Assembly: GCA_016201735.1 (NCBI GenBank)
Contig: JACQCH010000035.1
Location: forward strand, 1-35,233
From: Candidatus Omnitrophota bacterium
GTDB taxonomy: Bacteria; Omnitrophota; Gorgyraeia; 1-14-0-20-64-10
Length of the DNA: 35,233 nucleotides
Direction: 5' to 3'
This document shows positions 8,366-14,915 of the stretch, one piece after another. Both the position numbers and the translations under genes were made by a program. The notes under the pieces were generated by a model. That model was not told where the DNA came from. It saw only the letters and a program-made list of their open reading frames with translations, and made no database searches. Position 1 is the stretch's first letter, and each line of letters starts with the position of its first letter.

Positions 8366-10630
8366 TTATGGGTGATGAGCGGCGGGATGCCGGGAAGGCG
8401 GGCCGGACCGGTGGGGTTCCCGGGGACGTTCACCCGAACGTTCCCGGCCTGGACCCCCGCGCCCATAATCTCCACCGGGTCGGCCGCTCCGCTCGGGGCG
8501 CCGGGCCGGAGGAATCGGCGCCGTTCCCGGCGGAAGGAGCGCCTGCTTGTGGCTCAAGTTGACCCGGCCTTGCGAGTCGATCTCCACCACCTTGACAGAG
8601 ATCGTGTCCCCCAATTTCACCACATCTTCCACCTTCGGAACAAACTGGTCGGACAGTTCCGAAACGTGGCAGAGCCCCTCTTTGCCCGGGGAGATCTCGC
8701 AGAAGGCCCCGAAATTCGTGATCCGCTTCACGATCCCCTGATAGACCTTGCCGATCTCCGCCTCTTCGGTCAATCCCCTGATGAAGGCGATCGCCTTCTG
8801 AGCGGCGGCCGCGTCGGCGGAGGCGACCATCACGGTCCCGTCATCCTCCACGTCGATCGAGGCGCCGGATTCCTGCGTGATCCTGCGGATCATCTTTCCG
8901 CCGGGGCCGATCAACTCCCCGATCTTCTCCGGATCGATCTTGAGCAGGGTAATCCGCGGAGCGAAGGGAGAGAGCTCCGGCCGATAGGCCGGGAGGGTCG
9001 CTAAGACCCGCTCCAGGACAAATTCCCGGGCCGGCTTGGACTGCTTGAGGGCTTCCCCTAACAGTTCCACGGGAATACCGGTCAGCTTCAAATCCAGTTG
9101 AAGCGCCGTGATCCCCTTGGCCGTCCCCGTCGCCTTGAAGTCCATGTCTCCGAAGTGGTCCTCGAGTCCGATGATGTCGGTCAAGATCACCGATTGATTC
9201 CCCTCCCGGACCAACCCCATCGCGATCCCCACCACCGGCGCCTTGATCGGCACCCCCGCGTCCATCAGGGCCAGCGTCCCCCCGCAGACCGTGGCCATCG
9301 AGGAGGACCCGTTCGATTCCAGGATCTCAGAGACGACCCGGACGGTGTAGGGGAATTGTTCCTTCAAGGGCATCACCGGCCTGAGGGCTTTCTCGGCCAG
9401 CGCCCCATGCCCGATCTCCCGGCGGCCCGGCCCCCGAACGGGGCGGATCTCTCCGACGGAGAACGGGGGAAAACTGTAATGAAGCATGAACGACTTGAAC
9501 GATTTCCCCTTGAGGGCGTCGATGATCTGCTCATCGGAAGCGGTCCCCAGCGTCGCCGAGGCCAGCGACTGCGTCTGCCCCCGCGTGAAAAGGCCCGATC
9601 CGTGGGTCCGGGGCAGGACCCCCACTTCACAGGAGATGGAACGGACCGTCGTCAGGTCCCGGCCGTCGATGCGCCGGCGTTCTTTTAAGATCATCTGGCG
9701 AACCAGGGTCCGCTCCAGATCGTCGAGATCTTCTTCCACCTGCGATTCGGTCAGAGTTCCTTCCGGGGTCTGGAACTCCTTGACCAGCTGTTCGACAAGG
9801 ATCTTTCTCTCATCGGAGCCCCCTTCCTTCTCGCTCCGAGAACGAAGCTCCTCTTTCACCTGATGCTCGGCCCGCTGCTGGATCCGTTGGGAAAGCTGGG
9901 CATCCGCTTTCTGAAGCGGAAGGGAAACCTTGGTGACTCCGCAGGCGGCGATCAGTTCTTCCTGCAGATCCATGCTTGCCTTCCCTTGTTCCTGCGCGAA
10001 ACGAATCGCTTCCAGGATAGTTTCCTCGGGAACCTCTTTCGCTCCCGACTCCACCATCAGCACCCCATCCTTGGTCGAGGCGACCACCAGATCCAGGTCT
10101 CCCTGTTCGATCTCGGCATAGGTGGGGTTGAGCACAAAGGAACCATCGACCCGTCCGACCCGGCAGGCCCCAACCCGGTGAACCACGGGGCTCGTGGAGC
10201 AAAGCCCTAAGGCGGTGGAGGCCCCGATGATCGCCAGGATGTCGGGATCGTTGGCCCCATCGTGAGAAAGCACCAGGGCAATCACCTGAACCTCGTTAAA
10301 GAATCCCTTGGGGAAAAGGGGGCGGATGGGGCGGTCCACCAAGCGGGAGGTCAAGATCTCCTTCTCAGAGGGACGGCCTTCCCTTTTAAAGAAACCTCCG
10401 GGGATCTTCCCCGCCGCGTAGGTCTTCTCCTGATACTCCACCGTCAGAGGGAGGAAATTCTTCCCCTCCTTCGGCTCCTTGGAGATCACCGCGGAAACCA
10501 GCACCACGGTCCCGCCGTACTGGACCATCACGGAGCCGTCGGCCTGCTTGGCCATCCGGCCCGTTTCCAAAATTAAGTCTTCTTTGCCGTATCGTTTCTG
10601 GACACGGCGCACCATCTTGTTAGCGGTCAC
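8366..10630 (-). CDS. pnp: Polyribonucleotide nucleotidyltransferase (PNPase)
   Basis: Phosphorolytic 3'-5' exoribonuclease and RNA tailing enzyme of the mRNA decay machinery. The 754-residue protein has the standard order: first RNase PH domain, an alpha-helical linker (about 240-310), second catalytic RNase PH domain (FTRGQTQSLASATLG and the GDMDFKATGT segment), then a KH domain with IGPGGKMIRRI (about 567-627) and an S1 domain (about 628-703). A Gly/Arg/Pro-rich tail ends the protein. The start is GTG at 10628-10630, with AGGAGG five bases before it; an ATG five codons in is less well placed. It follows rpsO, the common bacterial order, with a palindromic repeat between them. Confidence 0.97.
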   Translation of the reverse strand: MTANKMVRRVQKRYGKEDLILETGRMAKQADGSVMVQYGGTVVLVSAVISKEPKEGKNFLPLTVEYQEKTYAAGKIPGGFFKREGRPSEKEILTSRLVDRPIRPLFPKGFFNEVQVIALVLSHDGANDPDILAIIGASTALGLCSTSPVVHRVGACRVGRVDGSFVLNPTYAEIEQGDLDLVVASTKDGVLMVESGAKEVPEETILEAIRFAQEQGKASMDLQEELIAACGVTKVSLPLQKADAQLSQRIQQRAEHQVKEELRSRSEKEGGSDERKILVEQLVKEFQTPEGTLTESQVEEDLDDLERTLVRQMILKERRRIDGRDLTTVRSISCEVGVLPRTHGSGLFTRGQTQSLASATLGTASDEQIIDALKGKSFKSFMLHYSFPPFSVGEIRPVRGPGRREIGHGALAEKALRPVMPLKEQFPYTVRVVSEILESNGSSSMATVCGGTLALMDAGVPIKAPVVGIAMGLVREGNQSVILTDIIGLEDHFGDMDFKATGTAKGITALQLDLKLTGIPVELLGEALKQSKPAREFVLERVLATLPAYRPELSPFAPRITLLKIDPEKIGELIGPGGKMIRRITQESGASIDVEDDGTVMVASADAAAAQKAIAFIRGLTEEAEIGKVYQGIVKRITNFGAFCEISPGKEGLCHVSELSDQFVPKVEDVVKLGDTISVKVVEIDSQGRVNLSHKQALLPPGTAPIPPARRPERSGRPGGDYGRGGPGRERSGERPREPHRSGPPSRHPAAHHP

Positions 10631-10657
10631 AAAATCCTCCTATTGATTAATAATTGG

Positions 10658-10734
10658 GTCATTTCGAGGCCTTCAGGCCGAGAAATCCCGTCTTTAAAAG
10701 TGTGATCTCTCGCCACTTCGTGGCTCGAGATGAC
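10658..10734. repeat. Double-hairpin palindromic repeat between rpsO and pnp
   Basis: GTCATTTCGAG at the left faces CTCGAGATGAC at the right. Two imperfect hairpins lie inside: TTTCGAGGCC-TTCA-GGCCGAGAAA, and ATCTCTCGCCAC-TTC-GTGGCTCGAGAT. The layout resembles paired REP elements. Read in the operon mRNA it sits where other bacteria carry a processing hairpin upstream of pnp. Confidence 0.75.
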
Positions 10735-10746
10735 AGTGGGGAGCGT

Positions 10747-11016
10747 TTATTTTCGGAGATTCAGGCGTTCTATGATCTTCTGGTATTCCGGGCGGGCGCT
10801 CGTTTTCAGGTATTCCAACAGCTTTCGACGCTGGCTGACCAGCTTCAGGAGGCCCCGCCGAGAATGGTGGTCCTTCCGATGAGCTTTAAAGTGCTCCGTC
10901 AGAAGATTGATCCGCTCAGTCAATATGGCGATTTGAACCGGCGCCGAGCCGGTATCCATTTGATGCGTCTGAAAGTCGCGGATGAGTTTTTCTTTCTGTT
11001 CTTTTACGAAAGGCAT
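10747..11016 (-). CDS. rpsO: 30S ribosomal protein S15
   Basis: Primary 16S rRNA-binding protein of the small subunit platform. The 89-residue product has the full S15 signature: [22 protein letters not shown], then the loop [19 protein letters not shown] with the rRNA-contacting HH/SRRGL residues, and the final helix [12 protein letters not shown]. The frame is open to 11103, but the ATG at 11014-11016 gives exactly the family length; the upstream part would overlap ribF and has no S15 similarity. It lies 23 bases after ribF and precedes pnp. The Shine-Dalgarno is weak, so it may depend on coupling to ribF. Confidence 0.97.
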
Positions 11017-11039
11017 CTCGGTAATCACGTGTTGGTTCA

Positions 11040-12062
11040 CTATATCACCCTGGCTTTCCCCTGTAAAGCGAAGAATCGTTTCGCGCGGCGGGCGTCGGCG
11101 CAAAGCTGCCGCGTGAGCGCCTCGGCGGAGGCGAAGCGCCGCTCGGGCCGTAACCGCTTGTGGAAAACCACCTCTAGGGCTTGTCCGTAGAGCTGTCGGC
11201 GGACGCCGAACAGGTGTACCTCAAGAATTGCAGTGTCAGACACCTCTGCATCTTTGCAAAAGTTGAATCGGTGTCTGACACTGAAGGTGGGACGATAGCC
11301 GATGTTGGCCATCCCTTGAAGATTGTCATTCCCGCGAAAGCGGGAATCCGATCCTCGCTTTCGCGAGGATGACACCCTGGCCGTAACCGCGTAGACCCCC
11401 ACCGGAGGGAGGACCCCGGCTCCGATCCGCAGATTGGCCGTTGGGAATCCCATCCTCCGGCCCCGGCCGAACCCCGGGATATTCACCCCCACCACCGTCA
11501 CCGGCCTGCCCAACTCCTTGGCCGCCCGGACCAAATCTCCCTTCCGAATCGCCAGGCGAATTTGATGGGAAGCGATCCGCTGGCGGCCGATCCGGACCGG
11601 AGCCACCGCGTGAACCTTGAATCCAAACTGGCGGCCTGCTTCTTTCAACGTCTCGATGGAGCCGGAGCGGCGGACCCCGAACCCGAAATCATGGCCCACC
11701 ACCACCTCCCGAACCCGCAGCGTCCCAACCAACAACCGACGGACGAACTGATCCGGCGTCCACCGGGAGAAGACCCGGGTGAAAGGGATCACCAGCGCGG
11801 CCCGGATGCCGCACTGCTCAAAGGCCCGAATCCTCTGCTCGATGGAAAGGAGCATCGGCGGAACCAGCGAAGGATTCAAGACCGTCAGTGGATGCGGATT
11901 AAAGGTGATCGCCATCGGGGTGCCGCCGAGCGCCCTGGCCCGGACCACCGCTCGGCGCAGAATCGCCTGGTGCCCCCGATGTACCCCATCAAAAATCCCG
12001 ATGGCGGCGACCGGATTTTTCCATCGGACGGGACGGGCGGGGATGCGTCGCAGGATGATCAT
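11040..12062 (-). CDS. ribF: Bifunctional riboflavin kinase / FAD synthetase, with two repeat insertions
   Basis: Converts riboflavin to FMN and then FAD. The N-terminal adenylyltransferase domain shows [10 protein letters not shown] (22-31) and ITFNPHP; the C-terminal kinase domain shows [13 protein letters not shown] and [10 protein letters not shown]. At 340 residues it is longer than most. Two palindromic repeats are read in frame in the kinase domain: residues ~230-247 ([19 protein letters not shown] 11324-11373) and ~260-278 ([17 protein letters not shown] 11231-11283). They lie in surface loops either side of [10 protein letters not shown], so the catalytic core looks intact. I prefer the ATG at 12060-12062, with GAAGGA eight bases upstream, over the one at 12069-12071, which overlaps the truB stop. 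Confidence 0.93.
11231..11283. repeat. 53-bp inverted repeat inserted in ribF
   Basis: CAGTGTCAGACACC (11231-11244) and its perfect complement (11270-11283) bracket a 25-base centre. The element is read in frame as RibF residues ~260-278. The GTGTCAGACACC core is itself a palindrome. Confidence 0.85.
11324..11373. repeat. GTCATTCCCGCGAAAGCGGGAATC-type repeat inserted in ribF
   Basis: Two small hairpins lie side by side: ATTCCCGC-GAAA-GCGGGAAT, and ATCCTCGC-TTTC-GCGAGGAT. GTCAT at the left mirrors ATGAC at the right. Repeats of this kind occur in many unrelated bacterial genomes. It is read in frame as RibF residues ~230-247. Confidence 0.85.
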
Positions 12063-12065
12063 TTC

Positions 12066-12094
12066 GGTCATCCTTCGACAAGCTCAGGATGACC
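12066..12094. repeat. REP-like repeat at the truB/ribF junction
   Basis: GGTCATCCT and AGGATGACC form a 9-bp perfect inverted repeat around TCGACAAGCTC. On the minus strand it encodes the last residues of TruB (GHPELVEG), the stop TGA, and the GAAGGA that serves as Shine-Dalgarno for ribF. Confidence 0.8.
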
Positions 12095-12757
12095 GATCCT
12101 CTTCACCGAGATAAGATGCCCCGGCTGGACTTCTTCCAGTCTTATCGCCTCCTCAATGCTGAACGGGCCCACCCGGGTCCGGCGAAGCTGGGCCAGATGC
12201 CCTCCGCATCCCAACGCCTCTCCCAAATCTTCGCAGAGGGTCCGGATGTAGGTTCCTTTGGAGCAGCGGATCTCCAGATCCAGATCGGGAAGGGAACAAC
12301 CCAAGATCTTAAGTTCATCAATCCTGACCGTCCGGCTCCTGGCCGGAATGGGAATCCCGGCCCGGGCCAGTTCATAGGAGCGCTTCCCCTGAATCCGGAC
12401 CGTGGAGTAGGCCGGGATCTTCTGCTGGATCTCCCCCTGGAAGCGGGCGCAGGCCTGCTGGATCTGATCCAAAGAAAGTTGGCCGACGGGCCGCGTCTGC
12501 AGAATCTTCCCTTCCCCGTCCTGAGTATCTGTGACGATTCCAAGCCGGAGGGTGGCTCGATAGCTTTTGTCGGCCCCAAGGAGAGTGGAGGCCTGGCGGG
12601 TGGCCTCTCCAACGAGAAGAATCAGCAGCCCCGTCGCTGCCGGATCCAGAGTGCCGCCGTGTCCCACCCGCCGGATCTGAAAGCGGCGGCGGATCCAGTC
12701 CACCGCGTCATGGGAGGTGATGCCGGCTGGTTTGTCGATGAGGAGCAGGCCGTTCAC
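12068..12757 (-). CDS. truB: tRNA pseudouridine-55 synthase
   Basis: Forms pseudouridine at position 55 of the tRNA T-loop. The catalytic Asp38 lies in GHGGTLDPAATG. Other family marks are the opening GLLLIDKPAGITSHDAV, SYRATLRLG and the RCSKGTYIRTLCEDLG motif near residue 165. The 229-residue protein is the short form without a PUA domain. The start is GTG at 12755-12757, set in the arm of cassette B with GGAGG upstream. The C-terminus ends in the residues GHPELVEG, which are a translated REP-like repeat, so the natural end has probably been replaced. It sits between nrnA and ribF. Confidence 0.95.
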   Translation of the reverse strand: MNGLLLIDKPAGITSHDAVDWIRRRFQIRRVGHGGTLDPAATGLLILLVGEATRQASTLLGADKSYRATLRLGIVTDTQDGEGKILQTRPVGQLSLDQIQQACARFQGEIQQKIPAYSTVRIQGKRSYELARAGIPIPARSRTVRIDELKILGCSLPDLDLEIRCSKGTYIRTLCEDLGEALGCGGHLAQLRRTRVGPFSIEEAIRLEEVQPGHLISVKRIGHPELVEG

Positions 12758-14291: not shown

Positions 14292-14493
14292 CCCGCCCCT
14301 CCGGAGTGCCCCTGTCCTCTGGGTCCGCTATTCTGTGATATCACCCGAAAACCTCCAGCAGTTTGGCTTAATCCCGGCTCAGAGGACAGGGGCATCTGTG
14401 CCAAAGGCACAGATGCCCTCGGCCAACCCCTCCACCCAGTCATACTGCATCATCCTCTCCTTGCCGAGGGCATGAACTCCGGAGGGGCGGGGT
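14290..14493. repeat. Gene-junction inverted-repeat cassette, copy C
   Basis: The same 18-bp arms as copy B lie at 14290-14307 and 14476-14493, enclosing 204 bp. Inner arms are CCCCTGTCCTCTG (14309-14321) with its complement at 14380-14392, ATCTGTGCC-AAA-GGCACAGAT (14394-14414), and ATGCCCTCGGC (14413-14423) with GCCGAGGGCAT (14463-14473). It fills the whole space between the ylxP stop and the rbfA GTG, and is flanked by minus-strand TGA on both sides. Confidence 0.9.
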
Positions 14494-14818: not shown

Positions 14819-14849
14819 TGTTGGGGGAGATGGGAAATCTCCCCCAACA
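14819..14849. other. Perfect 12-bp hairpin upstream of ylxP
   Basis: TGTTGGGGGAGA and TCTCCCCCAACA pair around TGGGAAA. Neither strand has a T-run directly after the stem, so simple termination is not clear. First of three hairpins packed between tRNA-Arg and ylxP. Confidence 0.6.
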
Positions 14850-14880: not shown

Positions 14881-14915
14881 CTAGGGAGAGAACCACGCAA
14901 TGGTTCTCTCCCTAG
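14881..14915. other. Perfect 15-bp hairpin upstream of ylxP
   Basis: CTAGGGAGAGAACCA and TGGTTCTCTCCCTAG pair without mismatch around the five-base loop CGCAA. No T-run follows on either strand. Its right edge touches the inverted repeat at 14916. Confidence 0.65.

Follow-up and report, generated by a model that had tools for sequence, protein, structure and literature searches.

Two unrelated palindromic repeats lie in frame in the riboflavin kinase domain of RibF from an uncultured Omnitrophota bacterium

Introduction

Rickettsia palindromic elements (RPEs), as described in the available part of PMC2229807, are short palindromes that lie in frame in conserved genes, where the peptides they encode are tolerated. 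The accessible portion of PMC3733652 identifies RPE-6 and RPE-4 with two repeats of R. conorii, CGTC-1 and CGTC-4, respectively, and characterizes the CGTC-1 family, which includes the dRS3 repeat of Neisseria, by a TGTC or CGTC tag, an 8-bp stem starting from AT, a 4-nt loop, and inverted dimers; some of these repeats are located inside open reading frames (ORFs), and no dedicated transposase is known for them according to that text. The five phyla in which the same portion records CGTC repeats do not include Omnitrophota; it also reports two repetitive extragenic palindromic (REP) sequences in a single gene (uvrA of O. terrae, uvrB of R. conorii) as well as REPs that differ between related Xanthomonas species and occupy roughly the same position in recB. 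The literature already contains examples of in-frame REPs, of double insertions, and of REPs that share a site. For the repeats associated with RAYT/TIRYT (TnpA-REP subclass 2.1), the terminal inverted repeat consensus given in the accessible text of PMC6006769 is GGGG[AT][CG]A[CG]. Our literature searches combining Omnitrophota with repetitive extragenic palindromic sequences, and riboflavin kinase with palindromic elements and insertion, found nothing.

Results

The window, the whole stretch of 35,233 nucleotides analyzed here, is contig C48 of an Omnitrophota genome (G000) of 1.81 Mb that is 95% complete; assemblies of Candidatus Omnitrophota are its closest relatives with a name. It carries ribF, encoding the bifunctional riboflavin kinase/FAD synthetase, on the minus strand (11043-12071; stop codon, 11040-11042) as a complete and uninterrupted frame of 343 codons (343 aa) within a truB-ribF-rpsO-pnp gene run. 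Two Pfam domains were assigned to the protein, FAD_syn (residues 17-169) and Flavokinase (residues 187-334), and both palindromes are located in the kinase half, one on each side of a 10-residue motif (residues 254-263; 11283-11312, minus strand). The type A palindrome (11324-11374, minus strand) covers residues 233-250 in loop 1; its 51 nt correspond to exactly 17 codons and encode a peptide of about 16 residues inside the loop. The type B palindrome (11231-11283, minus strand) covers residues 263-281 in loop 2 with 53 nt, of which the outer arms, CAGTGTCAGACACC ... GGTGTCTGACACTG, pair perfectly over 14 bp. The two are separated by a conserved segment (11284-11323, minus strand) that includes the 10-residue motif, the last base of which is common to the type B arm. 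An earlier sequence-only reading had proposed two unrelated palindromic repeats in frame in ribF, both in loops, and these claims are borne out: both inverted repeats were found in the one 343-codon frame, and they share no sequence relation. That reading gave 11231-11373 as the repeat coordinates, of which the start is right and the end should be 11374; its residue ranges (~230-247 and ~260-278) indicate the right sites with numbers that are 3 too low, as if the protein started at Met4.

Folded as isolated DNA, the two palindromes gave z scores of -6.15 and -6.14 against dinucleotide shuffles, and for either of them 0 of 200 shuffles were equally good. No Rfam family matched positions 10500-12300 of the window up to an E value of 1, and on this ground an FMN riboswitch or other structured RNA family was ruled out. 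Several other features of the surroundings were recorded. The end of truB and the start of ribF overlap a CATCCTTCGACAAGCTCAGGATGAC stretch (12068-12092) that encodes the C-terminal peptide GHPELVEG of TruB, and its CATCCTTCGAC motif recurs at loci of the same genome. More hairpin-like GTCATTTCGAG/CTCGAGATGAC repeats occupy the pnp-rpsO intergenic stretch (10655-10737), and within own-genome loci of about 145 kb in total these motifs recur 7 and 10 times. Three further strong palindromes, one with CAGAGGACAGGGGCA arms, lie near rbfA (14307-14394, 14819-14849 and 14881-14915), outside the minus-strand ORFs listed there. A search of viral contigs for RibF relatives confirmed none.

RibF was detected in 272 of the 285 genomes of the phylum, and 202 distinct genes (130 from Omnitrophota and 72 others) were aligned; this is a non-random set composed of the best search matches and 80 further stretches. 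Loop 1 was defined as the segment between the GVYAV strand and GMANIG, and loop 2 as that between PTF and LEVH. The presence of the same loops in repeat-free homologues had been named beforehand as the finding that would overturn the insertion claim, and the opposite was observed: loop 1 has 12 residues in 117 of the 130 Omnitrophota proteins and 25 in the window, and loop 2 has at most 12 residues in 123 of the 130 and 19 in the window. Because the loops are short in homologues that lack the repeats, both palindromes are insertions. They are not clean ones, since fewer native residues are left in the window than in its relatives (about 8 vs 12 in loop 1; 1-2 vs 6-12 in loop 2); judged from the alignment, each insertion was probably accompanied or followed by partial loss of the native loop. 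We saw no target-site duplication, nor an allele of the same species that lacks the inserts.

The residues of the RibF motifs that are invariant in the alignments are retained in the window protein, where loop 2 immediately precedes the strand bearing the invariant Glu284. The AlphaFold model, computed with 34 aligned sequences, has a mean pLDDT of 90.6; the only segments of at least 3 residues below a pLDDT of 50 are 238-243 and 266-277, both within the inserts, and regular strands flank each of them. Its best match among solved structures was the FAD synthetase of C. ammoniagenes (Z, 32.4-32.6; root mean square deviation [rmsd], 3.0-3.2 over 315-320 residues). The model points to a plausible RibF fold that accommodates both inserts with the core kept, and not to activity as such; the enzyme is presumably expressed and functional despite them. 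The strong selection for frame proposed in the sequence-only reading is plausible as a matter of survivorship.

The two units of type A read TGTC-ATTCCCGC-GAAA-GCGGGAAT and TGTC-ATCCTCGC-GAAA-GCGAGGAT and are inverted relative to each other. Both begin with the TGTC tag of CGTC-1, and a TGTC or CGTC start was seen in 22 of 54 type A unit readings, in which each unit was read once per strand. The 8-bp stem (ATTCCCGC/GCGGGAAT) with AT first and the 4-nt GAAA loop agree with the CGTC-1 features in PMC3733652, as do the 51-nt inverted dimer and its copy number of 35 places in G000. The tails vary across the set, the window unit ending in CCG as against the CCA expected for CGTC-1. In tag, stem, loop, dimer arrangement and copy number, type A agrees with CGTC-1 REP dimers as the accessible part of PMC3733652 describes them. 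The search returned 36 matches, one of which, the type B palindrome matching itself, was excluded; matches were obtained in 20 of the 59 genomes searched, G000 included. The best other copy is 100% identical over 51 nt and lies inside an AcrB-type gene, and some copies, like some other palindromes, are intergenic.

A Pfam check of 20 type A ORFs (the window's own and 19 from the 34 places outside the window) placed 6 of the 35 copies in frame inside a domain, namely, in RibF, the AcrB-type transporter, polyprenyl synthase, CinA, HemB, and NadE. In this small number of hydrophilic frames, SSSRKRGS was read in 4 of 6 and DSRFRGND in 4 of 6. Alignments to solved structures showed gaps that coincide with the repeat peptide or lie close to it in HemB, polyprenyl synthase, NadE, and CinA, with no single clean gap in HemB, NadE, or CinA. 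In HemB of the same genome (L282, G000:C53:45383-45413), a partial type A repeat follows directly after the HGHCG motif, close to the metal-binding region. The frequent insertion proposed in the sequence-only reading is borne out for type A, given its 35 places, of which 6 lie in frame within a Pfam domain, and does not extend to type B, which is single copy.

Type B occupies only one place in G000. Of 59 genomes, 5 contained the pattern GTGTCAGACAC-N(3-40)-GTGTCTGACAC, with 15 places in G052, 2 in G045, and 1 each in G000, G001 and G009; the reversed control pattern was found in none of the 59. One place in G052, a distant member of the Omnitrophota, overlaps the 3′ end of that genome's only Y1_Tnp gene, and one in G045 is located 119 nt before a Y1_Tnp match; in Pfam, these two Y1 proteins showed no additional HTH domain. 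Y1_Tnp was present in 47 of the 59 genomes searched, with 0 found in the 95% complete assembly of G000. A palindrome adjoining Y1_Tnp of its own genome, taken as one test of RAYT/TIRYT membership, was therefore seen in G052 and G045 and not in G000, and the other test, several copies in the own genome, separated the single place in G000 from the 15 in G052. Since G000 lacks both features, type B was filed as belonging to the same palindrome class only, and not as a RAYT/TIRYT member. The reading we prefer for it is that of a remnant of a repeat associated with Y1 transposases.

Other palindromes occur in the same loops of further RibF genes: in loop 2 of L013 (G007) and loop 1 of L017 (G005), both from Omnitrophota of the same family as the window genome, and in loop 1 of L061 from Verrucomicrobia. 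The L017 palindrome occurs at 24 places in G005 by our count of the matches, the L061 element has 54 matches in its own genome (KTt_bin-1485), and the L013 element is rare in G007 and repeated in the sibling G001. In L061, loop 1 spans 36 aa and is encoded by a long palindrome. Among the 202 RibF genes, 6 inverted repeats scored at least 13, and 5 of these fell within the two loops, which make up 4,342 of the 60,152 codons examined (7.2%). From 20 sets of synonymous-codon shuffles, the expected number of such repeats was 0.05 for the loops and 0.75 for the remainder. The window itself contributes two of the five loop palindromes and was chosen for them; with the window omitted, 3 of 4 strong palindromes remain in the loops. 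Chance palindromes were ruled out by these shuffles (0.05 expected in the loops vs 5 seen) and by those of the isolated DNA (0/200 as stable). One palindrome of score 13 lies in the core of L082, outside the loops, shorter ones scoring below 13 occur in L037, L012 and L015, and the long loops of L028, L251, L259, and L260 contain no strong palindrome. The five loop inserts (window A, window B, L013, L017, and L061) are five different sequences. A RibF tree of 17 sequences computed without the loops is weakly supported within the family, where most nodes have values of 0.41 to 0.85, and does not yield an exact number of insertion events; for loop 2, G000, G001, G002, and G007 may go back to a single early insertion that was later replaced.

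Discussion

We consider it probable, at about 0.82, that two REP elements of different classes were inserted independently in ribF and kept in tolerant loops, which would make these loops permissive sites. Non-autonomous mobile palindromes would insert widely in the genome, and in essential genes only copies that offer a stop-free frame in a tolerant loop would persist. Types A and B would have entered ribF independently. Each would have persisted because its site, a surface loop in the riboflavin kinase module, tolerates changes in length and because its frame is free of stops, so that the enzyme can still fold. Type A would have spread recently in G000, and the lone copy of type B would be a relic in a genome without a detectable Y1 (RAYT/TIRYT) transposase. 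The mobility of the elements and this order of events are our inference. Receipt of other palindromes by the same two loops in other lineages would mark them as permissive, loop 1 being naturally long in mycobacteria as well, and we infer tolerance rather than targeting behind the recurrence. As a member of a repeat family within a conserved gene and absent from homologues, type A is an in-frame coding palindrome; type B can be called one only if copies in other genomes count.

The same recurrence, together with the position of loop 2 directly before the strand with the invariant Glu284, could also mean that the inserted peptides were selected as useful, for regulation, oligomer formation, or membrane or RNA contacts, and that recurrence reflects adaptation. 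This is very improbable given that the insert sequences are entirely different between lineages, are modeled at very low confidence like disordered loops, and include a type A peptide shared with unrelated proteins, while insert-free relatives are the majority. That the palindromes form strong hairpins at both the DNA and the RNA level, and that type A and other palindromes are also intergenic, would suit an action as DNA or RNA on transcript pausing, processing, or stability in the truB-ribF-rpsO-pnp run, with the peptide as a tolerated by-product; the lack of a matching Rfam family and of such a hairpin at this place in most relatives makes such a role quite unlikely.

Loops that merely vary in length, with inverted repeats arising by chance or codon bias, would be in line with the range of loop 2 (2-27 aa across RibF genes) and the naturally long loop 1 of mycobacterial RibF (23 aa). 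This explanation is scarcely credible against the 35 copies of type A in G000, the multicopy L017 and L061 palindromes, and the excess over the codon shuffles; the multicopy searches contradict chance or codon bias as the source of the inverted repeats. Beyond tolerance, active targeting or benefit is possible: the two loops could be a cross-phylum landing site to which elements are drawn, or the loop near the catalytic strand could tune flavin synthesis. We hold this extension of the permissive-site reading to be unlikely; if true, REP insertion would be a recurrent source of new protein loops. Recurrence in one essential enzyme provides natural replicates, with different inserts at the same site and insert-free relatives as controls, and these make the question of whether such inserts are neutral or useful directly testable.

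Comparison with known systems

Our findings extend protein-coding palindromes, best known from Rickettsia, to Omnitrophota. Like the RPEs in the available text, the RibF elements are in-frame palindromes in a conserved gene with tolerated peptides; here the host is an uncultured member of the Omnitrophota, and two repeat classes share one domain. Type A resembles the CGTC-1 family, as far as the accessible description goes, in its tag, stem, loop, inverted dimers, and partial location in ORFs, and differs from it in the window unit tail (CCG vs CCA) and in a host phylum outside the five listed. In G052 and G045, palindromes of the type B class lie next to a Y1_Tnp gene or overlap it, as RAYT/TIRYT repeats would; unlike these, GGTGTCAG matches the consensus in the available part of PMC6006769 only in part, the Y1 proteins are without an extra HTH domain, and G000 has no Y1_Tnp. 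The double insertion and the different REPs at one site recall the REP-decorated uvrA/uvrB and the recB of Xanthomonas in the text available, in which the repeats are of the GTAG/CGTC kinds, whereas RibF combines one CGTC-type with one Y1-transposase-type repeat, and its recurrent site covers two phyla rather than related species. New here are the Omnitrophota host, the unusual pairing of two REP classes within a single domain, and the repeated occupation of homologous loops across phyla.
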